Positions 31,499 through 48,003 of a stretch of DNA of 48,003 bases are shown here, one piece after another. The stretch comes from Bacteroidota bacterium (GTDB lineage: Bacteria > Bacteroidota > Bacteroidia > Bacteroidales > GCA-2748055). The notes beneath the pieces were generated by a model. The model saw only the letters and a list, made by a program, of their open reading frames with translations. It did not search any database and was not told the origin of the DNA. Each line of letters opens with the position of its first letter. Position 1 is the first letter of the stretch. The DNA lies in assembly GCA_020047715.1 (NCBI GenBank), contig JAIFNN010000069.1, positions 1-48,003 of the forward strand, given 5' to 3'. The translations under genes and the position numbers were made by a program.

Positions 31499-34400
31499 AT
31501 GAAAACTATTATCCGCAGCAGAAAGAAGATTTGTGCTTTTCTTTTCCTTTTTGTTTTTTCTATAATGCTTCCGGCCAGCGTTTTTTCGCAATTGTCGGGC
31601 ATAAAAACCATTAATCCATCGGGGGGCGATTTCGTTAGTTTTACTGCTGCTGTAAATGCGCTGGCTTCTCAGGGTGTTAGTGGTCCTGTGGTTTTCAACG
31701 TTGCTGCTGGAACCTATACCGAACAGGTTATCATCCCTGAAATTGTCGGAGTCAGTGCAGTGAATACCGTTACTTTCCAGTCATCTACCACAGATTCCTC
31801 TCTAGTTGTTCTTTCCTTCAGTGCTGCACTGGCGGCATCCAATTACACTCTCCTCCTTAACGGTAGCGATTTTATAGTTTTGCGTAAGATCACCATACAA
31901 GCTCTGGGCAGCACTTATGGGAGGGCTATTGAAATTGCCGGAACTGCTTCCAGCGTGATTATTGAGAACTGCCGTCTTATCGGTTTCAATTCAACCGGGG
32001 GATATTCAGAGCATTCCTTAATCTACAGTTACCGTGTACCATTAGCTAAGCTCACTGTAAGAAACAATCTTTTCTCGGGTAGTAATTATGGTATTTACCT
32101 CGAGGGAGTCAATTCAACCACTCTCACACCTGAAACACGAATTTCGGGTAACAACTTTTCCAGTCAGCGCTTATACGGAATGCACCTCGAGAGTCAAAAT
32201 GCCCCGGTTGTAAGCTCAAATACCATACAGTTGAAATCCGATGCGGGCTATGGCATATATATGCAATATTGTGATAACGCCCTGCTTGTCGAAAAAAACA
32301 ACATTATCCTCCCCGGTGGGCATTATGGCATCTACCTGTATTTATGCGACGGGAATTCATTGGCTCGTGGACTTGTGGTGAACAACACAGTTGCCATCAC
32401 TGGCGGCAGCAACGCATCGGGTATTCATTACAATGGCTCAAGCTATCAGAATATCTGGCATAATTCGGTGCAACTAACTGGTGTAACCACCAGTGATTTT
32501 GGTGCATTTTATCTTACCGGTGGATCCAACACCGATATCCGGAATAATATTTTTTCCAATGCGGGCGAAAATTATGCCTACAACATTAAAACTCCTTCTG
32601 CCATTGAGTTTTCCGACTATAACAATTATTATTCCAACGGGAATTTTTTAGCCTTCTGGGGCAATAAAAGGGAGGATCTAGCCCAGCTGAAAGCTGCTCA
32701 GTCGCCTCTTTACGATGCGAATTCCATTTCCTTTAACCCGGTATTTGTTTCTGCAACTGATCTTCACGGGGGATCGTTCAGGATCGACAACAAGGGTACC
32801 AACCTGGGAATTACCAAGGATATGGATGGGCAGACCCGAACAGCTTTTGATATTGGGGCCGATGAATTTGCCGGAACCGGCTCTGCTCTTGCTGCCGGAA
32901 CCTATAGTATTGGTGGAGTATCGCCCTCTTTCGCCAGTTTCGTGCAAGCCGCAGCTGTTTTAAATACCTATGGCATATCCGGGAACGTCACGTTCAATGT
33001 GCGCAATGGTACTTATGACGAGCAGTTTACTTTAAGTCCGATTGCTGGCACAGGCCCTTCTGCCCAGGTTATTTTTCAAGCAGAAAGCGGCGATTCTACA
33101 AAGGTTGAGCTTTCCTTTAATTCAGGAAATCTAAACAACTATCTTGTGCGCTTTAGCGGGGCCGATTATGTGACCTTCAGAAAACTTAGTCTTACAGCCC
33201 TTAATCCGACCTATTCGAGAATATTCCTGTTTGATGGTAGCTCCCATAACAATACAATCACTTCTTCGATCCTGAACGGTCAGCCTTCCGGTTCAACTTA
33301 CGATGCCCTGATTTACTCCTATGAAAGCAATGCAAACAACCTTACTATTACCTGGAATCTTTTTTCCGCCGGACGTTATGGGGTTTACCACAATCCAAAC
33401 TCCCTTTCCAAAGCAACAGGTCTGATAGTTCGAAAAAACAATTTTTCCTCTCAGAGGGGCAGTTACCCGAATAGCATTTACCTTCGATATCATATAGCCC
33501 CAGACATACAGTCCAACACATTTACAAACACTCTTGCTACAAATTATTACGCTATTAACCTTCAGGATTGCAACGATGATATCAAGGTTATATCCAACAG
33601 GGTTAACTCGAATAACTCAGAGGGCGGAATTTTGCTCAATGCCTGTAAATCAATAAGCACAAAACGAGGCTTGGTGGCAAACAATTTCGTTGCCATTAGC
33701 GGATCTTCAAATGCTTGGGGCATTTATCTGTATAATTCCGAGTATCAGAATATCTATTATAACTCGGTTCGTATAAGCAGTTCACATCTTTCCAATGGAA
33801 GGGCTTTTTACAATGCAGCCAACTCGAATAACATCAACCTGCGTAACAATAATTTTACAAATTTCGGAGATGGTTATGCCTTTTACAGCGAGGGCACAAC
33901 GGTGAATTTTGCATCCAACTATAATAATCTTTACTCAACGGGCATATACCCTGTTTTTTGGAACGGTACATCTCACAGTTCGTTGTCTTCCTACCAGACA
34001 GCTGCCACACTCGATGCTAATTCCTTTTCGGTTAATCCGGTTTATCTTTCCGAGACCGATCTTCATGCGCAAAGTTCGTTTGTGAATAATGCAGGAACTC
34101 CTCTTGTTGAGGTTCTTTCCGATATCGACGGACAAAACCGAAATGCAGCAACACCCGACATCGGTGCCGATGAGTTCATTCCTACCTTGTTGCCTCTGTC
34201 TGCAGGTACATATACCATTGGTGGTGTATCACCCAGCTATCCGAACTTTACTGCAGCAGTCAGCGACCTTAACAACCGTGGGGTATCCGGCCCTGTGGTT
34301 TTCAATGTGCGCAACGGGATCTATAATGAACAAATCTCCTTGTATGAAATTAACGGTGCCTCATTGGTTAACAACATCCTTTTCCAGTCAGAGTCGGGCG

Positions 34401-37400
34401 ATTCCAGCAAAGTAGAACTTACTTTCTCGGCAAACATTAACAATTCGCATATTGTGCAACTCTCAGGCACTGATTACATAAGTTTCCGCAAACTAACATT
34501 TACAACTTTGAACCCCACTTATTCCAAGATTTTTAATTTGAGGGGAGGCATCCGAAAACTAAGCATTCAGAACAGTGTGCTCAATAGTAACGGCTCCACC
34601 GGAGCTGAATATTACACTTCGGCTATCTATTCTGAAAATGCTACCTTCACTGATCTTCTTATCGAAAACTCCATTCTAAATGGAGGTAGATCGGGGATAT
34701 GGATGGAAAGTCCACTGGCTGCTCAGAGTGTCGGAACCCGGATTCTCAGCAACCGCTTTACCGGACAAAATTACGACGGTCTTTACCTGAAGTACCACGA
34801 GGCAGCGAAAATTGAGAGAAACAACATTGTCAATACAACCGCTTATGTCTATTTCAATGGAATTTACCTTTCCTATTGCAACAACGATATCCTGATAAAC
34901 CGAAATTCAGTCACAGCACCTTCAGGACGTTATGGGATTTTTCTGCAATATTGTTCGGGAAACATCTCCAAAACCGGTTTGATTTCGAACAACATAGTAG
35001 AGACAGGAGGCACTGGAGGTTCAATAGCTATAATTCTTGAGAACAGCAATTATCAAAGGGTATATTTCAATTCTTCGAATGTAACAAGCACCGATGTTAA
35101 CGGCGGTTCAGGATTCACTGTAACCGCAGGTTCAAATATCGATATTCGCAATAACAGTTTTGCGAACTTTGGAGGAGGCTGGGCATACACAACGAATTCT
35201 GTTACTGCAATCACCGGTTCCGATTATAATAATCTTTTCACCACCGGCAACTTTTTAGCCAACTATAACGCCCCAAGTCGTGATCTTGCTAGTTTCAAAG
35301 CTCTAAGCGGAAAAGAGGCCAATTCAATCTCAGTAAACCCGGTATACACAGCCCTTATCCGAACCACAAGTTCGTACCTTAACAATAAGGGCTCTGCTGT
35401 TGGGGTGGTTACAACTGATATTGATGGCGAGTCCCGAAGTGTTGCTACACCCGACATCGGTGCGGATGAGTTTGTGCCCAGTCAGTTACCTTTTGCCGGA
35501 ACTTTTACAATTGGTGGTACTTCACCCGACTTTGTCTCTTTCAGCGCTGCAGCAACAGCTCTTAACGAAAGGGGAATTTCCGGGCCGGTAACCTTCAATG
35601 TAAGGAACGGAGTTTACACCGATCAACTGGATCTCATGGAAATAAGTGGAGCAAGCGCCATAAACAAGATTGTTTTCCAATCTGAGTCGGACGATTCCAC
35701 TAAAGTTACCCTGAACTTCAATTCCGGGTCAGCATCTACCAATTTTGTTGTCAGGTTGATTGGAACCGACTTTCTGACTCTCCGAAAACTCACCATCGCA
35801 GGAACCAATCCCGTTTATAGTAATCTTATAACATTAGTCGGGAATGTAAGTCAGGTAAATATCCTGAACAATGTTCTAAGCTCAAATATAAATGCATCTT
35901 CCACTGCTATTTCCTCCCCCGATGGGAATGTCCTTAATGCCATCGCTATAAAGAATAACAATTTCCTTAGTGGGAGCGTAGGTATTTTTCTCGACGGAAA
36001 CAATTCTACGCAATCTCCGGGTTTGGAAATAAGTGGGAATAAATTCAATAATCAGAGGAGTTATGGTATACGTCTCGATGCTTTCGAAAGTCCACAAGTG
36101 AAGGCAAACGACTTGTACAGTAACATCTACGGTTACGAAGGGATTTACCTCTATAATTGCAATACCAAACCCGATGTTTCCGGAAATCGAATTTTCACAG
36201 AAAACCTTTCGACGGGAATAACCCTTTACTATTGCTACGGTACCCTTGTTAATCAGGGGATTGTTTCCAATAATTTTGTATCGATCGCAGGCAGCTCTTC
36301 CGCAACTGGTATTCAGATTAACACAAGCCAATACCTTAACGTAGTTTATAATTCAGTTAGCATTACATCCACATACAATGCACCAGCTTATAAATCTGCT
36401 TTTTACCTTTCAGGTGGTGACAATGTTTTTGTCAGGAACAACATTTTCTCCTGCTCAAACGGAGGCTATGCCTATAATGTAAACACTCCTGCTGCAATTG
36501 ACGGCTCAGATTTCAACAACTTGTATTCAACTTCAGACCTGGCAGTTTGGGGAGGTGTGAGATCCAACCTTGCCGCTCTTCGAACAGCTAACGCTATGGA
36601 TGCCAAATCACTTTCTGTAAACCCCGAATTTGCTTCTGTAAGCGATTTGCAAGTGAAGCAAGCTCTCTTGCACAAAGCGGCAACTCCTTTGGCTATTGTG
36701 ACAACGGATATCTTCGGAAACCTGCGTGATGCAATCAAGCCTGATATTGGGGCAACCGAGTTTTCCTGTGTTACGCCGGTGATAGACTTCTTTGCATCCT
36801 CGTCGTGTTTTGGCGACAGCACTGAATTTTCCTACAATATTACCAAGGTTGCTTATGGTTCAAATTTCAGCTTTGACTTCGACAACGACTTTAATCCGGA
36901 CGAAACTTTTAGTTCTCCCAATGGGATTATTAAGCATCTTTTTGCCACGTCCAGCCCAAAAACGGTAAACCTACTAGTTTCTCAGCTTGCCGGTTGTAAC
37001 AACTCTATTGCCAAAACTATTTCTGTGGAGCCCTCGCCGGTTTTGGATGTGATTACAGAAGGTGCATATTGTGGCAACGATAACGGTTCAGCGTCAGTTA
37101 ATGTGTCAGGCAGCAGTGGACCTTTCAGCTACCACTGGTCAAACGGAAGCGATGACACCAATGTTATTGGCCTTGCCAAAGGAAGCTATTCTGTTACCGT
37201 AAAAAATAGTGATAATTGCATCAGCACAACAACTTTTGAGATAGGTGACAAGATCATTGTTTCAGCCAGCGAACTGAGTCCATCAACCTGCGGTCAGTCT
37301 GATGGTAGTGCAGTAGCAACCGCAACAGGTGGATCTGGTCCGTATAGTTATGTGTGGTCAAATGGGGAAAGTCTTGCAACTGCAGTGAATTTGCCATCAG

Positions 37401-39013
37401 GTGCTAATTATATAACGGTTACAGATGGAACAGGATGTTCCACTGTAGGGTCGGTTAACATCAGCACTGATGCTTCAGGACCCAAGATTGCTCTCAAAAC
37501 GGTTACCCACAATATCTGCTACGGTGAAAAGATGGGGGTTTTGGATATTACTCTAACCGGAGGAACAACACCCTACAGTATTCAGTGGTCGAACGGGGAG
37601 ATTACAGAAGACTTGTCAAATCTAGGATCGGGTATATATGATATTTTGGTAACGGACAATACAGGATGTTTGGCAACGGCAACTTTTGGGATTGAACAGC
37701 CAGTTTTCCTCAATGTCTCGACTGTCGTAGAGGATGCCAGTTGCAGTGGTTCTGATGGAAAAGCAGTTGCCTTGGCTGGTGGTGGCGCAAAGCCTTACTT
37801 TTATCAGTGGTCGAATGGTAACACGGGACCTGTTGCTCAGAATCTCTCTGCAGGGATTTATACCCTCACCCTTACCGACAATAAAAACTGCTCTATTGTA
37901 ACCCCGGTAATTGTAAATAACTCAGGAGGCCCCAAAGTTTCCTTGAATAGTCTAACAGGAGTTAATTGCAACAATGAATCTACCGGTTCAATTGACATTC
38001 AGATCAGCGGTGGCACTCCCCTGTATTCCTATTCATGGTTACCCGGAGGTCAAACCTCGCAGGACATCACCGGACTTAATGAAGGCAGTTATGAAGTAAG
38101 TGTTACAGATAATGCCGGATGCATAGGGGTAAGCAGCTTTGTGATTGGAGAAGAATCCCCGGCAACCAACCCGATTTGTCTTGTAACTGTCGACAGTATT
38201 TCAGGGAAGAACCTTGTTGTTTGGGAAAAACTGAATCAGGCAGATGCGGCCTTCTACAACATCTACCGGGAAAGCTCCTCCAAAGGTTTATTTCAGCTGA
38301 TTGCCACCCGGCCAGCTGAAGAAATTTCAGAGTTTACTGATGAGATTGCAGATCCATCGCTCAGATCGTGGCGATATAAAATATCCGTGGTGGACGATTG
38401 TGGTAATGAATCCGATTTGAGCGAGTCGCATAAAACGATTCACCTTACACAGAATATAGGGCTTAATGGCAGGGTAAATTTGATCTGGGATAAGTACGAG
38501 GGATTTACAGCCAACAGTTACAAAATTCTGCGCTACTCAAAAGAGGAGGGTTGGATAACTCTTGGCAGAATTCCTGGCGACCTGTCCTCATTTACCGATG
38601 ACAAGGCTTTGCTGGAAGAAGAGTTATTCTATGAAATCGAAGTTGAAAATCCCAGCGGAGGCTGCTCCACCCTAAAAGCCAGCACCCACAACACTTCGAG
38701 ATCGAACCGTCAGAGCACCACAGTAAAGAATACTACGGGCATTTCGGTAAATGAGAGTCTGAAATCCCTTACGATTTATCCCAATCCGGCAAAAACGGAG
38801 GTCACCCTCGAGCTGAATCAGAAAAACCTGCAAAAGCTTGCAGTGGAACTAATTGATGCAAAAGGGCAAGTCTTGAGGAACTACCAGTACCCGGCCAGCT
38901 CCGACGAGTTCCGCACCACCATTGATATAAGTGGTATCAGCGAGGGTGTATATGTTTTGAGGATAAGCAGCGACACTAATATCAGCTTCAGGAAACTAAT
39001 TATACAGCCATAA
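31499..39013 (+). CDS. Giant T9SS-exported cell-surface protein with beta-helix and SprB repeats
   Basis: This 2504-residue protein starts with a signal peptide (MKTIIRSRKKICAFLFLFVFSIMLPASVFSQ). Residues about 33-1755 are four tandem copies of a roughly 430-residue module, each opening with a (G)T(F/Y)TIGG.SP.F..F..A...LN..G(I/V)SGPV-type segment, a right-handed parallel beta-helix core and an end (D)IG(A)DEF; starts are near 33, 460, 897 and 1327. A PKD-like segment (about 1757-1846), five SprB-type repeats (1847-2217, each with YxWSNG...L..G.Y.V.VTD..GC), two fibronectin-III-like segments and a C-terminal T9SS type A sorting domain (YPNPAKTEVTLEL..., about 2422-2504) follow. It is likely an adhesin or glycan-binding/processing protein anchored at or released from the outer surface. 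No catalytic motif is visible in the helix cores. Confidence 0.93.
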   Translation: MKTIIRSRKKICAFLFLFVFSIMLPASVFSQLSGIKTINPSGGDFVSFTAAVNALASQGVSGPVVFNVAAGTYTEQVIIPEIVGVSAVNTVTFQSSTTDSSLVVLSFSAALAASNYTLLLNGSDFIVLRKITIQALGSTYGRAIEIAGTASSVIIENCRLIGFNSTGGYSEHSLIYSYRVPLAKLTVRNNLFSGSNYGIYLEGVNSTTLTPETRISGNNFSSQRLYGMHLESQNAPVVSSNTIQLKSDAGYGIYMQYCDNALLVEKNNIILPGGHYGIYLYLCDGNSLARGLVVNNTVAITGGSNASGIHYNGSSYQNIWHNSVQLTGVTTSDFGAFYLTGGSNTDIRNNIFSNAGENYAYNIKTPSAIEFSDYNNYYSNGNFLAFWGNKREDLAQLKAAQSPLYDANSISFNPVFVSATDLHGGSFRIDNKGTNLGITKDMDGQTRTAFDIGADEFAGTGSALAAGTYSIGGVSPSFASFVQAAAVLNTYGISGNVTFNVRNGTYDEQFTLSPIAGTGPSAQVIFQAESGDSTKVELSFNSGNLNNYLVRFSGADYVTFRKLSLTALNPTYSRIFLFDGSSHNNTITSSILNGQPSGSTYDALIYSYESNANNLTITWNLFSAGRYGVYHNPNSLSKATGLIVRKNNFSSQRGSYPNSIYLRYHIAPDIQSNTFTNTLATNYYAINLQDCNDDIKVISNRVNSNNSEGGILLNACKSISTKRGLVANNFVAISGSSNAWGIYLYNSEYQNIYYNSVRISSSHLSNGRAFYNAANSNNINLRNNNFTNFGDGYAFYSEGTTVNFASNYNNLYSTGIYPVFWNGTSHSSLSSYQTAATLDANSFSVNPVYLSETDLHAQSSFVNNAGTPLVEVLSDIDGQNRNAATPDIGADEFIPTLLPLSAGTYTIGGVSPSYPNFTAAVSDLNNRGVSGPVVFNVRNGIYNEQISLYEINGASLVNNILFQSESGDSSKVELTFSANINNSHIVQLSGTDYISFRKLTFTTLNPTYSKIFNLRGGIRKLSIQNSVLNSNGSTGAEYYTSAIYSENATFTDLLIENSILNGGRSGIWMESPLAAQSVGTRILSNRFTGQNYDGLYLKYHEAAKIERNNIVNTTAYVYFNGIYLSYCNNDILINRNSVTAPSGRYGIFLQYCSGNISKTGLISNNIVETGGTGGSIAIILENSNYQRVYFNSSNVTSTDVNGGSGFTVTAGSNIDIRNNSFANFGGGWAYTTNSVTAITGSDYNNLFTTGNFLANYNAPSRDLASFKALSGKEANSISVNPVYTALIRTTSSYLNNKGSAVGVVTTDIDGESRSVATPDIGADEFVPSQLPFAGTFTIGGTSPDFVSFSAAATALNERGISGPVTFNVRNGVYTDQLDLMEISGASAINKIVFQSESDDSTKVTLNFNSGSASTNFVVRLIGTDFLTLRKLTIAGTNPVYSNLITLVGNVSQVNILNNVLSSNINASSTAISSPDGNVLNAIAIKNNNFLSGSVGIFLDGNNSTQSPGLEISGNKFNNQRSYGIRLDAFESPQVKANDLYSNIYGYEGIYLYNCNTKPDVSGNRIFTENLSTGITLYYCYGTLVNQGIVSNNFVSIAGSSSATGIQINTSQYLNVVYNSVSITSTYNAPAYKSAFYLSGGDNVFVRNNIFSCSNGGYAYNVNTPAAIDGSDFNNLYSTSDLAVWGGVRSNLAALRTANAMDAKSLSVNPEFASVSDLQVKQALLHKAATPLAIVTTDIFGNLRDAIKPDIGATEFSCVTPVIDFFASSSCFGDSTEFSYNITKVAYGSNFSFDFDNDFNPDETFSSPNGIIKHLFATSSPKTVNLLVSQLAGCNNSIAKTISVEPSPVLDVITEGAYCGNDNGSASVNVSGSSGPFSYHWSNGSDDTNVIGLAKGSYSVTVKNSDNCISTTTFEIGDKIIVSASELSPSTCGQSDGSAVATATGGSGPYSYVWSNGESLATAVNLPSGANYITVTDGTGCSTVGSVNISTDASGPKIALKTVTHNICYGEKMGVLDITLTGGTTPYSIQWSNGEITEDLSNLGSGIYDILVTDNTGCLATATFGIEQPVFLNVSTVVEDASCSGSDGKAVALAGGGAKPYFYQWSNGNTGPVAQNLSAGIYTLTLTDNKNCSIVTPVIVNNSGGPKVSLNSLTGVNCNNESTGSIDIQISGGTPLYSYSWLPGGQTSQDITGLNEGSYEVSVTDNAGCIGVSSFVIGEESPATNPICLVTVDSISGKNLVVWEKLNQADAAFYNIYRESSSKGLFQLIATRPAEEISEFTDEIADPSLRSWRYKISVVDDCGNESDLSESHKTIHLTQNIGLNGRVNLIWDKYEGFTANSYKILRYSKEEGWITLGRIPGDLSSFTDDKALLEEELFYEIEVENPSGGCSTLKASTHNTSRSNRQSTTVKNTTGISVNESLKSLTIYPNPAKTEVTLELNQKNLQKLAVELIDAKGQVLRNYQYPASSDEFRTTIDISGISEGVYVLRISSDTNISFRKLIIQP

Positions 39014-39381
39014 CCTCATGTAGATATATTGATTGGGTTGGTGTTTATGCAAAGGGTAATTTGTTGGATTTGCATGTCTGGATATACCTGGCATCATTAA
39101 CCACAATGATGGTTCTGAAAGTTACTTGATTCGGGTTCAGTCCATTCGGGGTTAAGGTTTCTGTGCTCAATTCATTCCTAATTCTCTGATGCCCATTGCA
39201 GGCGTTTTAGGAGGAGGTATGGTGTTATTTTAATTGGCAGCGAAGGGCTTTTATTTTAAAACATTTTAAGGGAACCAGGCATTGCTGACCTTCCGGATAG
39301 GATGGTTCACGATGCATCCAAAATAATATCCAGTGGTTGTTTTTCAATCAGATTTCATCATTGCATTTTAACGATTGTGTG
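39014..39381. other. Intergenic stretch after the giant gene
   Basis: The 465-bp gap up to the next start holds no convincing ORF on either strand; the minus-strand 153-residue track ORF (39358-39819) is a shadow of the Big_5 lipoprotein gene. No clean terminator hairpin after the giant gene was found. The right-hand end holds the tandem direct-repeat promoter described next. Confidence 0.5.
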
Positions 39382-39442
39382 AATGATATAAGTTAATCTC
39401 CAAATTTTGTAATGCTTTCCCTTTATAACGGGCGCAACTTTG
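39382..39442 (+). promoter_or_regulatory. Island regulon promoter, site A
   Basis: Two direct-repeat elements AATGATATAA (39382-39391) and AATTTTGTAA (39403-39412) begin 21 bp apart. CTTTG (39438-39442) lies 29 nt after the G of the second GTAA and forms a -7-like CAACTTTG. The start codon of the Big_5/OmpA gene lies 36 bp further. The repeats, the 21-bp phase and the 29-nt distance are the same in sites B, C and D. Confidence 0.8.
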
Positions 39443-39478
39443 CCGGGTGAAAATGCTTTCACATTTAAATCCATAAAA

Positions 39479-41101
39479 ATGAAGCCTAATAAAGTATTAG
39501 CAAGCATTGCAATTGCACTTGCTGTTTTATTTACGGGGTGTAAAGAAGACGATTTCGAGGAAGTCGACGGAATTTGCCCTATCGTTGTAACTACTGATCC
39601 TGCCAATCTTGCTACGTTTGTTTCTTTTAACCAGATAATATCTGCTACTTTTAATGCGAACATGGATCCGGTAACCTTTACTCCGGAATCTTTTAGCTTA
39701 CAAAGTGCAAAAAAACTTATCAGCAGCAAGCCTGGGTACCTTGTCCTATAATGCTGCCAGTAAAACAATGAGGTTTGTTCCTTCATCACCACTCGCCGAC
39801 AAGACAACTTAAACTGCAACCATTAAATCTACAGTTAAGGATTTAAGTGGAATTGGGTTACCAGGCAACTATGTATGGACTTTTAAAACAGGTGAAATAG
39901 TAAGTCAGAAAGTTATATTAACCGACCCGTTAAATCTGGCAACCAGGGTAGTGTTTGACAAAACTGTTTCAGCAACCTTCAGTGAATCCATGAACAGTGC
40001 AAGTCATACAGCAACAAGCTTTACACTTCACGAAGGTGCAAACCTGATCGATGGTCTCGTTTCGTATTCAGGTACATCAGCTTTGTTTATTCCTACAGCA
40101 GATCTTTCTGATAATACGCTCTATACGGCTACTATTACAACCGGAGCAGAAAGTATTACTGGCAACAATCTTAAGGCAAATTATGTATTGACCTTTTCAA
40201 CAATGAGCGCCGCCCCACTAATAATACTTACCGATCCACTGCAACTAGCTATAGATGTGGCTCTTGATAAAACGGTTACGGCAACTTTCAGCGAACCTAT
40301 GAATGGAACTACAATCACAGCCAGCAGTTTTACAATAAGCGAAGGATCGAATCCTGTTGCAGGTGTTGTTTCCTATTTTGGAACCGCAGCATCATTTAAT
40401 CCGGATTCTGACTTCCCGGAAGGTACCGTGTTCACAGCCAGAATTTCAACAGATGTTATAAGTGCCTCAGGCACCGTTTGCACAGCTACGTTTCTTTTAA
40501 TGCCGAGGGAGCTGAAAAAGCTTTTACTTCATGGTCGTTAGAGCTTAAAGATGAGAAGGCAACAGTACAAAGCTTTGGCCCTTATACTAAAGAAAGTGTT
40601 GCTATTCCCGGAAAAACTATATTGGGGAGCAGTCCATCGGGCAACTATGCGGCAACTATGATTGGGAAGACAAAAAGCGGAAAAACTGTAAAACAGGAGG
40701 CTCCTGTTCATATGGTTCTATGGACTCCGGCCGAAAGAGAAGAAGGCCTGAGATACAGTGTTATTTATGAGTTCAACAATTCTGATGCTATCGCGGTTTA
40801 TGAAAAGTATCTGACTGAGGTGGTTGCGCCAAAGATTCCCAAAGACGGCACCGTTATTTTACATGGACATACCGATGTTATTGGAGATGAGGCGCACAAC
40901 CAGGAATTGTCACTAGCCAGGGCTAATGATGTCAAGTCTATTCTGGAAAAGGCACTTGCAAAAGCCGGCAGAACCGATGTTGTGTTTGAAGTTTACGGAT
41001 TTGGCGAGGATGAGAGCCTTTCTCCCTTTAATAATGAGTATCCGGAAGAACGCTTTTACAACCGAAGTGTTGTGATTGATCTGCTTCCCCAGAAAATCTA
41101 A
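39479..41101 (+). pseudogene. Broken lipoprotein gene: Big_5 (Ig-like) repeats followed by an OmpA-type domain
   Basis: The start MKPNKVLASIAIALAVLFTGCKEDD (39479) has a lipobox FTGC. Three frames together encode one long protein: Big_5 repeats (ILTDPLNLATRVVFDKTVSATFSESMN; IILTDPLQLAIDVALDKTVTATFSEPMN) and a C-terminal OmpA-like domain (GTVILHGHTDVIGDEAHNQELSLARANDVKSILEKAL). Lesions seen: a +1 shift at an A7 run near 39699 (with six A's the frame continues correctly), an in-frame TAA at 39810-39812 where TTYTATI is expected, and a -1 shift between about 40470 and 40500. The join to the OmpA part may also be a chimera. Two homopolymer-type shifts could be assembly error, but the nonsense codon argues for a true pseudogene. 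Confidence 0.8.
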
Positions 41102-41122
41102 GAACTAAAACATTCTAGTATA

Positions 41123-41150
41123 AAGGCCTCATGTCGAGGCCTTTTTTTTT
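41123..41150 (+). terminator. Rho-independent terminator after the OmpA-type gene
   Basis: AAAGGCCTC, loop ATGTC, GAGGCCTTTTTTTTTT: a 9-bp stem with a long T-tract, 21 bp after the gene end. Confidence 0.92.
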
Positions 41151-41414
41151 TAGTAAACGAAGGCATTGGCGTTCCTTAAATACAGAAATTCTATTTTTGT
41201 CTTACCGGATAACAATGAAATTGCAGTGAGAATTCGAAAGTCAGCAAATAGGGGCGAAGCACATCAATTATCACAAAAAACCAATAGGTTTAAATGATTC
41301 AATACATTCAACCCAACAACACTAATGCTGAATTGCATGAATGGATTTGCGCAATGGGCATTTTTTTTTGTATATTTCCGTATTTAATTTCCGTTGAATC
41401 CAATGTTTTGAGTT
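41151..41414. other. Intergenic region before the first HMA-AraC gene
   Basis: 264 bp of AT-rich sequence without gene. I looked for the island direct-repeat element here and did not find a proper copy: no AATNNTGTAA pair with 21-bp phase precedes this gene. A weak -7-like TATATTTC lies near 41380. The first regulator is therefore probably controlled differently from the four sites A-D. Confidence 0.5.
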
Positions 41415-41975
41415 TTGAAAATCTATATTCAAAATATGGTTTGTATCCGTTGCAAAATGGTTGTTAAATCGGAGTTTGAAAAACTTGGTTTGCATTATGT
41501 CAATGTTGAATTGGGTGAGGCAACTATTAAAGAGGATATCACACCGCAACAATTGAAACTTCTCAGCAAGAATCTCAAAAAGACGGGATTGCTTCTAATG
41601 GATGATAAAAAAAGCATTCTGGTTGAAAAAATAAAACTGATTATTATCGAGTTGGTTCACTATACTGAAGATCAGATCAAAGTAAATCTTTCCGATTTTA
41701 TCAGCGAGAAACTTAATTTTGATTATAGCTATTTGTCCAATTTGTTTACTGAAGTCAAAGGAACCACCATTGAAAATTATTACCTGGCTCACAAGATCGA
41801 AAGAGTAAAAGAACTTATCGTTTATGATGAGCTTAACCTTTCTGAAATTGCATATAAAATGCATTACAGCAGTGTAGCGCATCTTTCCAACCAGTTCAAG
41901 AAAATTACAGGGCTTACACCATCCCATTTCAAAAATCTGAAGCACAAAAGACGCAGATCATTGGGCGAGCTCTGA
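41415..41975 (+). CDS. HMA-like/AraC-type transcriptional regulator 1
   Basis: The start is a TTG at 41415 (KIYIQNMVCIRCKM). I accept it because the paralogue at 43125 begins with the same KIYI-x-x-M from a GTG. Residues 1-65 have a ferredoxin-like HMA pattern: MVCIRC is an exact MxCxxC metal-binding motif, followed by a helix, strand LHYVNVELGEATI and a second helix. After the linker MDDKKSILVEKIKLIIIELVHY come two AraC-type HTHs: LSDFISEKLNFDYSYLSNLFTEVKGTTIENYYLAHKIERVKELIVYDELNLSEIAYKMHYSSVAHLSNQFKKITGLTPSHFKNLK (about 93-180). Probably a DNA-binding activator sensing metal or thiol state; that part is inference. Site B overlaps its stop codon. Confidence 0.88.
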   Translation: MKIYIQNMVCIRCKMVVKSEFEKLGLHYVNVELGEATIKEDITPQQLKLLSKNLKKTGLLLMDDKKSILVEKIKLIIIELVHYTEDQIKVNLSDFISEKLNFDYSYLSNLFTEVKGTTIENYYLAHKIERVKELIVYDELNLSEIAYKMHYSSVAHLSNQFKKITGLTPSHFKNLKHKRRRSLGEL

Positions 41976-42035
41976 ATTGTGTAAATCTTTCCGGCAATTG
42001 TGTAACATTTTCTTTTCCGAAACACTGCAACTTTG
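41975..42035 (+). promoter_or_regulatory. Island regulon promoter, site B
   Basis: Direct repeats AATTGTGTAA at 41975-41984 and again AATTGTGTAA at 41996-42005, identical and exactly 21 bp apart. CTTTG at 42031-42035 lies 29 nt after the G of the second GTAA. It precedes the cupin gene (start 42131), with an unusually long leader of about 95 nt. The first repeat overlaps the stop codon of the HMA-AraC 1 gene. Confidence 0.85.
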
Positions 42036-42130
42036 TCTGGTACAGTTTTTCTGAAGGTCTCCAGCATGAAGTACGGATGATCAATGTCTGGTAATTATGG
42101 TCAGATCTTAAATATTTCAAGATTAGAAGC

Positions 42131-42469
42131 ATGGAAAGCAAAGACGTTGAAAAAGGGAAAGCGCATATTATTGTTGAGATCATTGAATATGTTCCAAATT
42201 CGGTGGTAATAAAATCGATTATTAAGAAATCAACCGGAAATATAACAGCAGTTTCTTTTGATATTGGGGAAGCCCTGACTGAAAAAATAATTCCTTTCGA
42301 CACTTTTGTTCAGATTATCGATGGAAAGGCAGAGATATTAATAGATGGGATTTCCAGAATTCTCGAAACAGGCGAAGCAATAATTATTCCGGCACACTCT
42401 TCAAATATTGTTAAGGCTAACGAACGTTTCAAAATGATCTCAACTATAATTAAAAGTGGTTACGAATAA
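42131..42469 (+). CDS. Cupin-domain protein
   Basis: A 112-residue single cupin: VSFDIGEALTEKIIPFDTFVQIIDGKAEILIDGISRILETGEAIIIPAHSSNIVKANERFKMISTII. The G(X)5(L/H)... and final P.H....A pattern correspond to the two cupin motifs, though the metal-binding histidines are mostly replaced (only PAHSSN keeps one), so enzyme activity is doubtful and a sensor or binding role likely. It is transcribed from site B, behind HMA-AraC 1. Cupins of this size are common small regulators or enzymes in stress islands. Confidence 0.85.
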   Translation: MESKDVEKGKAHIIVEIIEYVPNSVVIKSIIKKSTGNITAVSFDIGEALTEKIIPFDTFVQIIDGKAEILIDGISRILETGEAIIIPAHSSNIVKANERFKMISTIIKSGYE

Positions 42470-42508
42470 AACCGTGTTAATAAGCCAGAGGTTCAAGACA
42501 AATGTGTG

Positions 42509-42569
42509 AATTATGTAACTGTTTGCTGTAATTACGTAATGATTCAAATGCGCAATGTATGCATCTTTG
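42509..42569 (+). promoter_or_regulatory. Island regulon promoter, site D
   Basis: Direct repeats AATTATGTAA (42509-42518) and AATTACGTAA (42530-42539), 21 bp apart; CTTTG (42565-42569) lies 29 nt after the G of the second GTAA. It precedes csbD (start 42607), 37 bp downstream, and probably drives the whole csbD to response-regulator unit. Confidence 0.83.
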
Positions 42570-42606
42570 CATTGCAACTATTTGTATATCATTCAAATCT
42601 ACAGCA

Positions 42607-42795
42607 ATGAAGAATATTACTGAATTAAAAGGAAACTGGAACGAAATTAAAGGAAAGCTAAAACAAAAGTTTGCAATGCTTACCGATAGCGATCTGTTAT
42701 TTACCGAGGGAAAAGAAGAAGAAATGTATGGCCGACTTCAGACACGCTTAGGGAAAACGAAGGAAGAGATTCATAAGCTTATCAATGCGTTGTAG
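42607..42795 (+). CDS. CsbD-family stress protein
   Basis: The ATG at 42607 (MKNITELKGNWNEIKGKLKQKF) gives 62 residues; the track's extra upstream residues are not part of the family. The signature is LKGNWNEIKGKLKQKFAMLTDSDLLFTEGKEEEMYGRLQTRLGKTKEEIHKLI, matching the CsbD pattern WxxIKGKxKxxxxxLTDxDLxxxxGKxxxLxGxLQxxxGxxKExxxxxI. CsbD proteins accumulate in general stress responses in many bacteria; their mechanism is unknown. First gene of the unit behind site D. Confidence 0.93.
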   Translation: MKNITELKGNWNEIKGKLKQKFAMLTDSDLLFTEGKEEEMYGRLQTRLGKTKEEIHKLINAL

Positions 42796-42810
42796 GTTGG
42801 GGTGGAAAAG

Positions 42811-42840
42811 GGGGTGACGAGGTGTCGAGGTGACGAGGCG
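42811..42840. repeat. Short octamer repeat array (GRGGTGAC type)
   Basis: GGGGTGAC, GAGGTGTC, GAGGTGAC, then GAGGCGAA: about three and a half octamers of the same family as at 5441 and 28629, here degenerating. It lies between csbD and the next small gene and is followed by GGGCGCAA, similar to GGGCGCT after the gmhA array. Confidence 0.7.
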
Positions 42841-42907
42841 AAGGGCGCAAGCATAACAGCAAATGTCGGATCGCGAATAACAGCCAAACATTCTAACAAC
42901 AATATTC

Positions 42908-43117
42908 ATGAAAAAAGCAGGGATTGTAATTATCGTAATCGGTGTAGTTTTAACCATCTTTACAGCATTTACTTTTTTCACGAGGGAGAAAGTCGTTGAT
43001 ATCGGAAAACTTGAAATTACAGCCAACAAACCACATCATTTCACATGGTCTCCCCTTATTGGAATCGGAGTTATAGGTATAGGGGGAATTATGTTATTGC
43101 TGCCGGGTAAAAAATAA
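42908..43117 (+). CDS. Small two-helix membrane protein (69 aa)
   Basis: MKKAGIVIIVIGVVLTIFTAFTFFTREKVVDIGKLEITANKPHHFTWSPLIGIGVIGIGGIMLLLPGKK: two transmembrane segments (about 4-24 and 49-66) with a short loop FTREKVVDIGKLEI between them. Proteins of this type accompany CsbD and related stress genes in Bacteroidota; no function is known. It is followed after 7 bp by HMA-AraC 2, so it is part of the same unit. Confidence 0.85.
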   Translation: MKKAGIVIIVIGVVLTIFTAFTFFTREKVVDIGKLEITANKPHHFTWSPLIGIGVIGIGGIMLLLPGKK

Positions 43118-43124
43118 TCGATTC

Positions 43125-43721
43125 GTGAAAATCTACATTAAATACATGGTCAGCAATCGGTGTAAAATGCTGGTGAAGGAAGAGTTGAAAAATCTCGGTC
43201 TTCACTTTGTTCTTGTTGATATGGGCGTAGCCGAGGTAATGGAAAATATTACTGATGTGCAGCGTGAAGAGCTCAAAGCTGCATTGTTGAGATCCGGCCT
43301 TGAGCTTATGGATGATAAAAGAGCAGTCCTTATCGAGAAAATAAAAAATGTGATTATTGAAATGATTCATTATACCGATGAAGTCCCTAAAATTAATTTT
43401 TCAGATTACCTGAGTGAAAAATTGGAGTACGATTACACCTACCTCGCAAACCTCTTTTCTGAAGTTCAGGGAACAACCATTGAGAGATTCATTATTTCGC
43501 ACAAAATAGAGCGGGTTAAAGAGCTGATTATTTATGATGAAATGAATTTAACTGAAATCGCATGGAAAATGCATTATAGCAGTGTTGCTCATTTGTCCAA
43601 TCAGTTTAAAAAGCACACCGGACTTACCCCTTCCCATTTTAGAAATTTAAAGAACAAAAGGCGCATTCCGATAGAAGAAATTGGCATTACAGAGAAAGCC
43701 GATACAACCGATAATTTTTAG
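43125..43721 (+). CDS. HMA-like/AraC-type transcriptional regulator 2
   Basis: The start is a GTG at 43125 (KIYIKYMVSNRCKM), aligned with regulator 1. It is a paralogue with the same order: HMA-like domain, MDDKRAVLIEKIKNVIIEMIHY linker and two HTHs (IERVKELIIYDEMNLTEIAWKMHYSSVAHLSNQFKKHTGLTPSHFRNLKNKRR). In this copy MxCxxC has become MVSNRC, so the first metal-binding Cys is lost. The 198 residues include a longer C-terminus than regulator 1. It lies 7 bp after the small membrane gene and 13 bp before the hybrid kinase. Identical core HTH segments (KMHYSSVAHLSNQFKK) suggest both bind the same DNA element. Confidence 0.88.
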   Translation: MKIYIKYMVSNRCKMLVKEELKNLGLHFVLVDMGVAEVMENITDVQREELKAALLRSGLELMDDKRAVLIEKIKNVIIEMIHYTDEVPKINFSDYLSEKLEYDYTYLANLFSEVQGTTIERFIISHKIERVKELIIYDEMNLTEIAWKMHYSSVAHLSNQFKKHTGLTPSHFRNLKNKRRIPIEEIGITEKADTTDNF

Positions 43722-43734
43722 GAGGCTTATAAAA

Positions 43735-46700
43735 ATGGAACGTACCAAAACCCATGGATCGCAATATGCCAGCAGTCTTATTGAAGCAAGTCTTGACCCG
43801 TTGGTAACAATAAATACCGAGGGAGAAATTACGGACATGAACCGGGCAAAAATTCTTATAACCGGAATGGAACGCAACGAGCTCCTGGGCACAAGTTTTT
43901 TCAGCTATTTCACCGAACCGAAGAAAGCACAACAGCTATATTTGGAGGTGTTTTCCAACGGAGTATTTTCGAGTACTCCTTTGACCATCCGACACAAAAA
44001 TGGCAGTTTGACAGATGTGTTGTTCAATGGGTCGATTTACAAGGATGGCAAAGGAAATGTTGTTGGAGCAGTGCTGGTGGCACGCGATACATCTGAACAA
44101 AAATGGGCAATAGAATTACGTGCGGCAAACAAGAAACTTGCTTTTCAAAATGATGAGAAGGAAAAAAGGGCTCAGGAACTGATCATTGCAAATAAGGAAC
44201 TCGTATTTCAAAACCAGGAGAAAGAAAAAAGAGCTGCTGAATTAATCATTGCAAATAAAGAACTTGCCTTTCAAAATAAGGAAAAGGAAAAGCGGGCTTC
44301 CGAGCTAAGTATCGCAAACAAAGAGCTCGCATTTCAGAATAATGAAAAGGGAAAAAGAGCGGGGGAATTGATCATTGCAAACAAGGAGCTTGTATTCCAA
44401 AATTCCGAAAAGAAAAAGCGGGCTGATGAACTAATCATTGCTGATAGGGAGCTTGACTTTCAGAACAAAGAAAAAGACAAGCAGGAAAAAGCAAATAGCG
44501 AACTCAGGGCATACAGTAATTCGGCAAATCTCGCTTCTCAGTATTCACTCAGTCTTATTGAAGCCAGTCGCGATCCACTTATAACAATCAGTCCCGAGGG
44601 AAAGATTACAGATATGAATGAAGCTCTGGCGAAAATTACAGGGATATCCAGGGAGAAACTTACCGGCACAGACTTTTTCGAATACTTTACCGAGCCAAAA
44701 ATGGCCAGAAAAGTGTATAAAAAAGTTTTTGCCAAGGGATCTGTGGCCGACTCTCCGCTTACGCTTCGTCATAAAAACGGTAAGCTTACCGATGTTTTGT
44801 TTAACGGATCGGTTTATAAGGACGACCGCGGCAATGTTATGGGTGTAGTGATAGTTGCAAGAGATGTAACGGCTCAAAAGGTCGCTTCGCACTATGCAAG
44901 GAGCCTTATTGAAGCAAGTCTTGACCCCCTTTTTACTATTAGTCCTGCAGGCAAAATCACCGACATGAATAATGCCTCTGTGAAAATCACGGGCGCGCCA
45001 CGCGAAAAATTAATAGGCTCAAACTTCTTCGACTATTTTACCAACTCCAATAAGGCAAGAAAGGTTTACAAGGAGGTCTTTGCCAAGGGTTTTGTTACTA
45101 ATTATCCGCTAACGATCAAAGACCATAAATTAACTGATGTTCTTTTCAATGGATCGGTTTATAAAGATGAACAGGGCAATGTGCTTGGCGCTGTTGTAGT
45201 TGCAAGGGACATTACCGAACAGAAAAGAGTGGCCAATGAACTTACAGAGGCCATTGTTTTTGCTGAACTGGCGACAGGACTGGCAGAGGATGCGAAGAGG
45301 AAAGCCGAAAAGGCTACCCAAATTGCAGAAAATGCAGTGAAGGCCAAACAGCAGTTCCTTTCCAATATGAGCCACGAGATCCGCACACCGATGAACGCTA
45401 TTATCGGGTTCACAAAAGTGGTTCTGAAAACAGACTTGTCAGCCAAACAAAGAGAATACCTGACAGCAATAAAAATGAGTGGGGATTCACTGATCGTGCT
45501 TATCAACGACATACTCGACCTGGCAAAAGTTGATGCAGGAAAAATGACCTTTGAAAAAGTCCCTTTCAAAATGGCCTTGTCCATTTCGGCAATGATTCAT
45601 TTATTTGAAACAAAAATTCAGGAGAAAAATTTAAAGCTTTTTAAGGAATATGATTCAAAGATTCCTGAAGTATTGGTTGGTGACCCTGTTCGTTTGCACC
45701 AGATAATTTTAAACCTTGTAAGCAACGCAGTAAAATTCACCAATAAGGGAAATATTACTGTAAGTGTTCGCTTGCTAAGTGAGGATAGCGAGAAAGTAAT
45801 TATTGAATTTTCTGTGAAGGACACCGGGATTGGTATCGCAGAGAATAAAATCGATAAGATATTTGAAAATTTCCAACAGGCATCAAGCGCCACTGCCAGG
45901 TTATACGGGGGTACTGGATTAGGCCTGGCCATTGTTAAGCAGTTGGTAGTACCGCAAGGCGGCACTATCTCTGTATCGAGCAAAATCGACAGGGGATCCG
46001 TGTTCAGTTTTGTACTTCCATTCTTAAAAACAAAAGCAGAAGCAGAGGAAGAACCCGGCGTTGAGGAACCGGATATGGAACCAAAAGATATCAAGGTGCT
46101 GGTGGTTGAAGACATTGCTCTAAATCAACTGTTAATGAGAACGTTACTTGATGATTTCGGATTTGAATGCGACATTGCAGCCAATGGGAAAATTGCGATC
46201 GATAAGCTTCAGTCAGCCCATTATGATATTGTGTTAATGGATTTACAGATGCCGGAAATGAACGGGTTTGAAGCAACGGAATATATCCGGAACAAGCTTT
46301 ACTCAAAAATTCCGATAATTGCTCTTACAGCGGATGTGACAACAGTTGATCTGGCCAAGTGCAGAGCTGTAGGAATGAACGATTATATTGCAAAGCCTGT
46401 GGATGAGCGATTGTTATACAGCAAAATTAACGAGTTGGTTAAGAAAAAACTCCTCCTTGCAAAAGCTAAAGATGATAATATCCTTACAGTCAAGCAGGTT
46501 AAATGCACTGATATGGGTTATCTGATGAGCCGAACAAAATCCAATCCGGAATTAATGATGCAGATGATTACGCTTTACCTGGAGCAAACACCGCCTTTAA
46601 TCAGCTCTATGAAAAAAGCTTTACGCGATAAGGATTGGGTGCTATTGCATGCAAGCGTGCATAAAATGATTCCTTCCTTTGCAATTGTGGGTATTAATCC

Positions 46701-46872
46701 AGACTTTGAAACCCTTGCAAGAAAAGTCAAGGATTATGCCGGGACTCAGTTAATGATTGAAGATGTTTCCGAAATTGTTCTTCAGATTGAAAAAGTCTGT
46801 GTTCAGGCATGTGTTGAGTTGCAAGAAGAGTTCAATAATATTAAAAAAAAGCAAAATGGTTCAGGAAAATAA
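43735..46872 (+). CDS. Hybrid sensor histidine kinase: PAS x3, coiled coil, HisKA-HATPase, REC, HPt
   Basis: The ATG at 43735 follows GGAGG, so I reject the track's upstream extension. The 1045 residues read: PAS 1 (about 8-122), a six-fold 21-residue coiled coil (127-252), PAS 2 (267-382), PAS 3 (384-500), HisKA with FLSNMSHEIRTPMNAII (His about 545), HATPase with LNLVSNAVKFTN and YGGTGLGLAIVK (to about 770), receiver VLVVEDIALNQ...DIVLMDLQMPEMNGFEA (785-905) and a C-terminal HPt (about 930-1030), whose VHKMIPSFAIVG carries the phospho-His. No membrane helix: it is a cytoplasmic phosphorelay kinase. Its 3' end overlaps the response regulator by 17 bp. Confidence 0.95.
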   Translation: MERTKTHGSQYASSLIEASLDPLVTINTEGEITDMNRAKILITGMERNELLGTSFFSYFTEPKKAQQLYLEVFSNGVFSSTPLTIRHKNGSLTDVLFNGSIYKDGKGNVVGAVLVARDTSEQKWAIELRAANKKLAFQNDEKEKRAQELIIANKELVFQNQEKEKRAAELIIANKELAFQNKEKEKRASELSIANKELAFQNNEKGKRAGELIIANKELVFQNSEKKKRADELIIADRELDFQNKEKDKQEKANSELRAYSNSANLASQYSLSLIEASRDPLITISPEGKITDMNEALAKITGISREKLTGTDFFEYFTEPKMARKVYKKVFAKGSVADSPLTLRHKNGKLTDVLFNGSVYKDDRGNVMGVVIVARDVTAQKVASHYARSLIEASLDPLFTISPAGKITDMNNASVKITGAPREKLIGSNFFDYFTNSNKARKVYKEVFAKGFVTNYPLTIKDHKLTDVLFNGSVYKDEQGNVLGAVVVARDITEQKRVANELTEAIVFAELATGLAEDAKRKAEKATQIAENAVKAKQQFLSNMSHEIRTPMNAIIGFTKVVLKTDLSAKQREYLTAIKMSGDSLIVLINDILDLAKVDAGKMTFEKVPFKMALSISAMIHLFETKIQEKNLKLFKEYDSKIPEVLVGDPVRLHQIILNLVSNAVKFTNKGNITVSVRLLSEDSEKVIIEFSVKDTGIGIAENKIDKIFENFQQASSATARLYGGTGLGLAIVKQLVVPQGGTISVSSKIDRGSVFSFVLPFLKTKAEAEEEPGVEEPDMEPKDIKVLVVEDIALNQLLMRTLLDDFGFECDIAANGKIAIDKLQSAHYDIVLMDLQMPEMNGFEATEYIRNKLYSKIPIIALTADVTTVDLAKCRAVGMNDYIAKPVDERLLYSKINELVKKKLLLAKAKDDNILTVKQVKCTDMGYLMSRTKSNPELMMQMITLYLEQTPPLISSMKKALRDKDWVLLHASVHKMIPSFAIVGINPDFETLARKVKDYAGTQLMIEDVSEIVLQIEKVCVQACVELQEEFNNIKKKQNGSGK
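44113..44490 (+). repeat. Six 63-bp direct repeats coding for a 21-residue coiled coil
   Basis: Inside the hybrid kinase the 21-residue unit EL(I/R)(I/A)ANKEL.FQN.EKEKRA repeats six times in register (residues 127-252). Each unit is exactly three heptads, with A, L and F at core positions. It joins PAS 1 to PAS 2 and should transmit a signal as a continuous coiled coil whose length can change by repeat slippage without breaking heptad phase. Confidence 0.9.
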
Positions 46873-47290
46873 AATTAAGCTTTTTCTGGTTGATGACGAT
46901 GAGTTGTATCTGAAGCTTCTGGAAATTGAACTTCTGGAAAATGCGGATTTGGTAATCGAAACTTACACAACGGGTGAGAATTGTATCCGTAACCTGGACC
47001 ACAATCCTGACCTTGTCGTCCTTGATTATCATCTCGATGGCGTTGAAAAAACTGCTATGAACGGTATTGAAGTATTGGATAAAATTAAGGCTTTCAACCT
47101 GAAGATCCCGGTTATTATGCTTTCAAGTCAGGATAAAATTGATGTGGCGGTCAATTGCATGCATCACAAAGCCTCAGAATATATCGTTAAAAGCGAAACT
47201 GCTTTTATACGTCTCCAACAATCCATGTCAAATATTTTTCATACTCAGAAAATAGAAAAGACATTAAGCTGGTATATGGAAAAGATGTAA
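46856..47290 (+). CDS. Single-domain response regulator
   Basis: I choose the ATG at 46856 (MVQENKIKLFLVDDDELYLKL), which overlaps the hybrid kinase by 17 bp and gives a 144-residue receiver; the longer track ORF only adds residues read from the kinase in another frame. Acidic pocket LFLVDDDE, phosphorylatable Asp in DLVVLDYHLDG (about 60), Ser/Thr in VIMLSSQDK (about 92) and Lys in SEYIVKSE (about 114) are all present. There is no output domain. It would accept phosphoryl groups from the neighbouring kinase/HPt and act by protein binding. Last gene before a terminator. Confidence 0.93.
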   Translation: MVQENKIKLFLVDDDELYLKLLEIELLENADLVIETYTTGENCIRNLDHNPDLVVLDYHLDGVEKTAMNGIEVLDKIKAFNLKIPVIMLSSQDKIDVAVNCMHHKASEYIVKSETAFIRLQQSMSNIFHTQKIEKTLSWYMEKM

Positions 47291-47327
47291 GCATATATCA
47301 ATTAAGCGTTTTAGTAAGGATTTCCCA

Positions 47328-47372
47328 CCCTGCTGTTTTTTGGCGTAAGCTAAAAATACAGCAGGGTTTTTT
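47328..47372 (+). terminator. Rho-independent terminator after the response regulator
   Basis: CCCTGCTGT and ACAGCAGGG form a 9-bp stem with a 21-nt loop, followed by TTTTTT. It ends the csbD to response-regulator unit, 37 bp after the last stop codon. Confidence 0.85.
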
Positions 47373-47381
47373 CAATGTGGG

Positions 47382-47442
47382 AATGATGTAACACTTTCCC
47401 ATAGTTGTGTAATGCTTTGCGCTTTAAACAGGTACACCTTTG
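47382..47442 (+). promoter_or_regulatory. Island regulon promoter, site C
   Basis: Direct repeats AATGATGTAA (47382-47391) and AGTTGTGTAA (47403-47412), 21 bp apart; CTTTG (47438-47442) lies 29 nt after the G of the second GTAA. The GTG start of the coiled-coil lipoprotein lies 31 bp downstream. The site begins 10 bp after the upstream terminator. Confidence 0.85.
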
Positions 47443-47473: not shown

Positions 47474-47935
47474 GTGAGAAAGATTTTTTTTTACCTGACT
47501 CTTATAGTTTTTCTAGTTGGATTTGTAGTTGTTGGCTGCCAGTCGAAAGACAAAAAAGTAGAGAGTGCCGAAAGCAAACTTCAAAATGCAGAGTTGAATT
47601 ACCGTAAAGCTTTAAAGAATTTTGAGGAAACAAAGAAGGATTCATTAAGTGATTTTGAACTTTTCAAAAACGATGTGGAAAGAAGTATTCTGGCGTATGA
47701 AATAAGTATCGCTAAATACAAAAAAGAAAACGAAAATGGGAGAACTCTGAACAAGGTGGAAAATCAAGCGAAGATGGCAGAGCTGGAGCAAAAAGTAGAA
47801 GTTCTTAAAGAGAAGTTGGTTAACTATAAAGACGATGAACATGACAAATGGGACATGTTCAGATCTGAATTTGTTCGTGACATGGAAGAACTTGGCAAAG
47901 CCTTAAGGGATTTTACAATTAAAAACAATTTCTAA
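47474..47935 (+). CDS. Coiled-coil lipoprotein, stress-protein-like
   Basis: The start is a GTG at 47474 (the nearest in-frame start for MRKIFFYLTLIVFLVGFVVVGCQSKDKK), giving a lipobox VVGC with Cys at about 22. The remaining 130 residues are a long charged coiled coil (KVESAESKLQNAELNYRKALKNFEETKK..., KMAELEQKVEVLKEKLVNYKDDEHDKWDMFRSEFVRDMEELGKALRDF). The tail resembles the sll1863-like stress proteins often found with CsbD and lmo0937-type genes; this family assignment is tentative. It lies behind site C and is followed after 41 bp by the next gene. Confidence 0.85.
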   Translation: MRKIFFYLTLIVFLVGFVVVGCQSKDKKVESAESKLQNAELNYRKALKNFEETKKDSLSDFELFKNDVERSILAYEISIAKYKKENENGRTLNKVENQAKMAELEQKVEVLKEKLVNYKDDEHDKWDMFRSEFVRDMEELGKALRDFTIKNNF

Positions 47936-47976: not shown

Positions 47977-48003
47977 ATGGGAAATCTACTTTATGTCATC
48001 GCG
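47977..48003 (+). CDS. lmo0937-like small membrane protein (3' end cut off)
   Basis: Only nine codons are in the window: MGNLLYVIA. That start is the typical beginning of the lmo0937-family small membrane proteins (about 50 residues, two hydrophobic segments), which commonly sit in Bacteroidota stress clusters. It lies 41 bp after the coiled-coil lipoprotein and probably belongs to its transcript. With nine residues the assignment rests on the match plus context. Confidence 0.6.

Follow-up and report, generated by a model that had tools for sequence, protein, structure and literature searches.

A recurrent two-box promoter signature in Bacteroidota and its candidate AraC-type activator

Results

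Four related sites on a Bacteroidales contig

We analyzed a 48,003-nucleotide stretch of DNA (the window), which is one contig (JAIFNN010000069.1) of a Bacteroidales draft genome (GCA_020047715.1; 3.78 Mb, 254 contigs), and focused on four putative promoter sites, A to D, and on AraC1, an AraC-type protein encoded between the first two (41415-41975). All four sites lie on the forward strand. Site A (39374-39442) consists of an extension (39374-39381), box 1 (39382-39391, AATGATATAA), box 2 (39403-39412, AATTTTGTAA) and a -7 box (39435-39442, CAACTTTG). Site B (41967-42035) has box 1 at 41975-41984 (AATTGTGTAA), box 2 at 41996-42005 and a -7 box at 42028-42035 (CAACTTTG again), with a degenerate 5' extension. 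In site C (42501-42569) the extension ATGTGTG is followed by box 1 (42509-42518, AATTATGTAA), box 2 (42530-42539, AATTACGTAA) and the -7 box (42562-42569, CATCTTTG), and in site D (47374-47442) the extension TGTGG leads into box 1 (47382-47391, AATGATGTAA), box 2 (47403-47412, AGTTGTGTAA) and the -7 box (47435-47442, CACCTTTG).

A preliminary description of this DNA had proposed two AATKRTGTAA-like boxes with starts 21 bp apart at 39382, 41975, 42509 and 47382, and direct reading confirmed them at all four sites. The constant distance to a CTTTG that it reported also holds: every site has CAnCTTTG, with 25 nt between TGTAA and CTTTG (which puts the C of the latter 29 nt past the G of GTAA). 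The same is true of the TGTGnGAAT extension, which sites A, C and D carry and of which site B has a degenerate form (TCTGAAT). The boxes themselves had been described less accurately; they do exist in tandem, but site A has imperfect ones, and conservation extends over a longer unit than noted (TGTGTGAATnATGTAA...).

Measured against the pattern AATKRTGTAA-N11-AATKRTGTAA-N22-CANCTTTG, sites A, B, C and D have 2, 0, 1 and 1 mismatches, respectively. The two boxes alone, allowing up to two mismatches, occur four times in the window compared with 0.012 expected. The full pattern including the -7 box also occurs four times, compared with no match at up to four mismatches in 4 Mb of simulated sequence (order-1 Markov, with the nucleotide-step composition of the window). 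A scan for the short TGTAA-N16-TGTAA was not discriminating by itself (87 matches, 54 expected), and the strength of the case therefore rests on the whole pattern. That the four sites are a real feature of the window is near certain.

Behind site A lies a gene for a Big_5/OmpA-type lipoprotein (39479-41101, forward strand, as are all genes described here; Pfam Big_5 and OmpA). It is frameshifted into three pieces (39479-39751, 39951-40541 and 40478-41101), reflecting either a decayed gene or errors of draft assembly or sequencing. Site B precedes the gene of a 112-amino-acid cupin-fold protein (42131-42469) with a weak EutQ match, whose homologues match Cupin_2; a site is found upstream of 30 of the 45 open reading frames (ORFs) homologous to it. 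The unit behind site C starts with a CsbD-like stress protein (42607-42795; Pfam CsbD, 1.4e-15), followed by an ORF for a small membrane protein with two transmembrane segments and no Pfam match (42908-43117). Next come a paralogue of AraC1, AraC2 (43125-43721), a hybrid histidine kinase with three PAS domains and a receiver domain (43735-46872; Pfam), and a single-domain response regulator (46855-47290), in which Pfam identifies a receiver domain and no DNA-binding domain. We considered the two-component proteins of this unit as the DNA binder and rejected them, since the response regulator consists of the receiver domain only. Site D is followed by a coiled-coil lipoprotein (47474-47935, GTG start) with a weak match to the sll1863 family stress response protein, and by the start (MGNLLYVIA) of a DUF5670-type small membrane protein (47977-48003), cut by the contig end. 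On its other side, the island of regulon genes is preceded by a predicted 2504-amino-acid surface protein with long internal repeats (31499-39013).

Recurrence of the sites across Bacteroidota

Genome-wide counts were obtained by pattern searches, with the reversed pattern searched alongside as a control. In the genome to which the window belongs, the full pattern had six matches at up to three mismatches in 3.78 Mb, and an improved motif identified eight sites; the reversed control gave none in either case. The regulon is thus larger than the four members initially proposed, and its sites do not occur at the random genome-wide frequency named beforehand as the outcome that would speak against it. 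We extended the scan to related genomes, as had been suggested: 28 genomes of the same family yielded 23 matches in seven genomes, and twelve named whole genomes yielded 47 matches in ten, with no match to the reversed control in either set. In several of the twelve, the sites cluster around the araC locus (in Emticicia aquatica, 8 of 11 sites are on the 77-kb araC scaffold).

We also retrieved 80 loci (1.25 Mb) with the AraC1 protein, from named genomes across Bacteroidota (Bacteroidales, Chitinophagaceae, Cytophagales, Flavobacteriales and Mucilaginibacter). Pairs of TGTAA were spaced by 21 bp 121 times in these loci, compared with about 9 times at other spacings. We counted 168 two-box sites at up to three mismatches, versus one for the reversed pattern, and 75 of the 80 loci had at least one site at up to four mismatches. 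The signature recurs widely in the phylum Bacteroidota.

Sites that cluster in islands, such as the 10 of 12 found on one 82-kb scaffold of Mariniphaga sediminis, might also have arisen as copies, through a small mobile element or recent duplication. However, the logo of 170 unique sites shows that the bases between and around the boxes vary freely, with conservation at the contact positions only, and the downstream genes belong to different families. We therefore rejected this explanation, whose probability we regard as negligible.

Three further observations concern particular assemblies. On contigs C51, C59, C77 and C8 of G025, several sites are within 0.8 kb of contig ends, which suggests that repeats near regulon genes break the assembly. 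A contig labelled Myxococcales (L087, CAJCIZ010000128.1) has a Bacteroidota-type araC gene and a site, and is probably misassigned. Finally, the more distant relatives L092, L100, L110 and L117 have variant operators, TGTGATTTATGTAA or TGTGATATGTGTAA, suggesting that the recognition sequence drifts along the family tree.

Promoter architecture

The logo of the 170 unique sites reads AATGTGTGAATnATGTAACTTWTTnnnnnAATTRTGTAACAcTT-n17-C/TAmCTTTGt. The seven bases 5' of box 1 (ATGTGTG) are conserved nearly as well as the boxes, although they were absent from the search pattern. The -7 box was likewise recovered when it was not part of the pattern: of the 168 sites found in this way, 129 carry [ACGT]TTT[GA] at an offset of 25 nt downstream of box 2, and a further 20 at 24 nt. 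In a second, independent genome set, the box is at the fixed offset in 19 of 31 sites.

The standard Bacteroides sigma-ABfr promoter has TTTG near -33 and TAnnTTTG at -7 (PMC7366714). The -7 box of our sites (C/TAnCTTTG) matches this -7 element (PMC7366714); at -33, in contrast, we found TTTG in none of the operators (TTG occurs at operator positions 26-33 in just 2 of 170), and the second half-site stands in its place. Given a retained -7 box and a second half-site at -33, this is the geometry expected for class II activation by an AraC-type protein: half-sites about two helical turns apart, the proximal one over -33, and a weak native -33. The class II placement proposed in the preliminary description for the 21-bp tandem sites agrees with both the fixed -7 offset and the missing -33 TTTG.

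The same architecture bears on two other explanations. The fixed distance to a -10-like element could indicate that the conserved blocks are read by an alternative, extracytoplasmic function (ECF) sigma factor and not by an activator, and B. thetaiotaomicron has a second type of promoter motif, with a link to oxidative stress (PMC7366714). Yet the conserved DNA forms two repeated blocks that reach some 70 bp upstream of the start, which exceeds what a sigma factor covers, and the -7 box is nearly the standard sigma-ABfr box; we rejected this possibility as very improbable. Alternatively, the AraC protein could repress these promoters by covering the -33 region, which box 2 does overlap. However, promoters without a -33 TTTG would be weak without an activator, and repression does not require a -7 spacing fixed within 1 bp, so that we consider repression unlikely, if slightly less so than reading by an ECF sigma factor.

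The candidate regulator

AraC1 is a 186-amino-acid protein with a TTG start. Its C-terminal domain, with two helix-turn-helix (HTH) motifs, matches Pfam HTH_18 (8.8e-16) and HTH_AraC (4.3e-11), and the protein matched 551 homologous stretches. A structure model (mean predicted local distance difference test score, pLDDT, of 91) shows an N-terminal beta-alpha-beta-beta-alpha-beta domain followed by the two-HTH domain. Foldseek matched the C-terminal part to AraC-type DNA-binding domains (probability 1.00; the AraC domain 2k9s was among the matches) and the N-terminal part to the copper chaperones CopZ (2qif), TTHA1718 (2roe), Atx1 (2xmv) and HAH1 (1fe0). The best PDB sequence matches of the N-terminus were insignificant, and mostly to heavy-metal binding proteins. 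As modelled, this domain is HMA-like by fold and weakly so by sequence.

The N-terminus of AraC1 carries the motif MVCIRC. Among 80 relatives, 47 have MVCxRC and 33 have MVSxRC, so that about 40% are without the first Cys; the second is invariant in an alignment of 56 sequences. Both kinds are found in the window, where AraC2, in the unit behind site C, reads MVSNRC (GTG start, one Cys lost) and is 63% identical to AraC1.

The presence of sites correlated with that of the regulator gene. Of 158 Bacteroidota genomes examined, 74 encode a member of the AraC1 family (E<=1e-30) and 18 contain a site at up to two mismatches. The regulator gene was found in 17 of the 18 site-bearing genomes versus 57 of the 140 site-less ones (Fisher p 9.3e-6), and in all eight genomes with at least two sites (p 0.002). 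Within the home family, sites occur in all five genomes with a close AraC1 orthologue (E < 1e-90) and in 2 of the 23 others.

The araC stop codon contains the start of the operator in 36 of the 80 araC loci, in a constant register (GTG-TGA-AT) that spans Bacteroidales to Cytophagales (e.g. L038:10556-10561; loci L038-L117). Box 1 of site B begins at the last base of the araC1 stop codon, but the sequence there is GAG-CTC-TGA-AT, which is why its extension is degenerate. Many regulators whose stop codon is overlapped by the operator have DV or NV as their last two residues, possibly a consequence of selection on the DNA.

The preliminary description had proposed a common regulator for the sites without naming one. 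A common regulator is strongly supported by the recurrence across the phylum, the fixed -7 offset, the absent -33 TTTG and the co-occurrence with AraC, and AraC1, whose gene lies between sites A and B, is the best candidate for the activator, an assignment that we regard as likely.

Several points weigh against this assignment. Of the 74 genomes that encode a family member, 57 are without a site at up to two mismatches, and further AraC-type paralogues are present in these genomes. Since many genomes with distant family members are site-less, the family likely has more than one DNA specificity, and part of it probably binds other sequences. One genome of the same genus (G019) has one site but no AraC match at 1e-40, and genome G072 has one site-like match without the regulator gene. 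The match of the AraC1 N-terminus to the Pfam HMA model (PF00403) is below the cut-off (E 0.013; 16.3 bits versus 24.8), and activation, as opposed to repression, is proposed from the position of the sites.

The main competing explanation is that the sites are real operators bound by some other transcription factor, the AraC gene being a frequent target or neighbour. This would account for G019 and G072, where no close AraC was detected, and for the AraC paralogues, chiefly of the SxRC type, that themselves stand behind sites. On the other hand, the presence of AraC is a genome-wide predictor of sites, a pair of direct repeats 21 bp apart, one of them over -33, is AraC-type geometry, and the other regulator of the island (46855-47290) has a receiver domain only. 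We give this explanation a small probability, though larger than that of any other alternative.

Genes behind the sites

In its own genome, the window shares the signature with a site (L178) preceding a DnaJ/CbpA-type chaperone that has a CbpM-like MerR_2 partner, and with one (L025) preceding a DUF5692 membrane protein. Two more are on L024: the minus-strand site precedes a glycine-zipper OmpA lipoprotein and an outer-membrane protein, and the plus-strand site precedes a 292-amino-acid gene that co-clusters with the gene behind the G019 site.

We classified the genes that immediately follow 96 sites. The family seen most often in this position is DUF5670 (8), followed by Ice_binding and CsbD (6 each), Big_5 and Cupin_2 (5 each), OmpA and AraC-type regulators (4 each), and KaiC-like ATPases and BON (3 each), with single cases of YceI, SPFH, GH130, short-chain dehydrogenase and MlaE. 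In three Bacteroidales drafts, genes for KaiC-like ATPases are found directly behind araC and the operator (L054:10996-12732, L059:10812-12548 and L063:10813-12549).

Enrichment of sites upstream of stress genes had been suggested as a check, and we did find it in the 80 loci; as these were picked by their araC gene, the enrichments are local, not genome-wide. A site within 450 bp upstream was found for 15 of 23 CsbD-like, 5 of 6 BON-like, 13 of 16 ice-binding-like, 14 of 20 Big_5-like and 13 of 22 OmpA-glycine-zipper ORFs, compared with 145 of all 1307 ORFs of at least 120 amino acids. Proteins like CbpA/CbpM, BON, KaiC-like proteins and small membrane proteins are typical of general stress regulons. 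CsbD is a direct target of the general stress factor EcfG in the alphaproteobacterium Sphingopyxis (PMC7083833). The initial reading of the island as an envelope and stress set fits the gene content in many genomes, and the regulon likely serves envelope and general stress protection, judging by the families encoded.

Discussion

We propose, with a probability of about 0.82, that the sites are activator-dependent promoters of one Bacteroidota regulon, in which an AraC1-type protein acts by a class II mechanism with a general stress and envelope output. AraC1 would bind these operators, two molecules of it (or of AraC2) occupying the two direct-repeat half-sites on the same face of the DNA. The downstream molecule would contact the primary sigma factor and replace the -33 contact, the sigma factor would read the -7 box (CAnCTTTG or TAnCTTTG), and transcription would start a few bases after the -7 TTTG. 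The regulon is predicted to comprise small membrane proteins, proteins of the envelope and of stress protection, signalling proteins, and more copies of the regulator, which could form a feed-forward arrangement. The inducing condition would be stress. The signal may enter through the HMA-like domain, possibly as a metal or redox signal at the Cys motif, through the PAS kinase and receiver protein of the site C unit, or through the abundance of the regulator itself. A bolder version is that the HMA-AraC protein is the master general stress regulator of Bacteroidota, in the role that alternative sigma factors (SigB, RpoS, EcfG) play in other bacteria, and that its chaperone-like domain serves to sense the state of metals or thiols; we hold this tentatively, at somewhat less than even odds.

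The preliminary description knew of no regulon with this signature, and we found none in the open-licence literature, most subscription papers being outside its scope; searches of the same literature on HMA-AraC fusions, on CsbD with AraC in Bacteroidota and on general stress responses of the phylum brought up no account of this system. Little is known of how general stress genes are switched on in Bacteroidota, whose members abound in soil, water and gut. Our results define a promoter signature, point to a candidate regulator whose domain combination is unusual, and list the genes concerned, including those of cultured species (Mariniphaga sediminis, Emticicia aquatica, Maribellus luteus and Niastella caeni). 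The operator inside the regulator's own stop codon is moreover a clear case of coding and regulatory sequence co-evolving.

Comparison with known systems reveals both likenesses and differences. AraC1 resembles copper chaperones and HMA domains in its beta-alpha-beta-beta-alpha-beta fold and, in the CIRC subgroup, in the MxCxxC motif; unlike them, it is fused to an AraC DNA-binding domain, and 33 of 80 relatives read SxRC. At araBAD of E. coli, the AraC half-sites (araI1-araI2) are also directly repeated 21 bp apart, the downstream one over the -35/-33 region, and are bound by an AraC-type HTH domain. The operator sequences differ, however; the N-terminal domain is there an arabinose-binding cupin and here has the copper-chaperone (HMA) fold, and one operon is controlled there compared with many promoters across the genome here. 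Finally, the gene families overlap with those of the SigB (Firmicutes), EcfG/PhyR (Alphaproteobacteria) and RpoS regulons, but whereas those depend on an alternative sigma factor, we propose here an AraC-type activator working with the housekeeping sigma factor.

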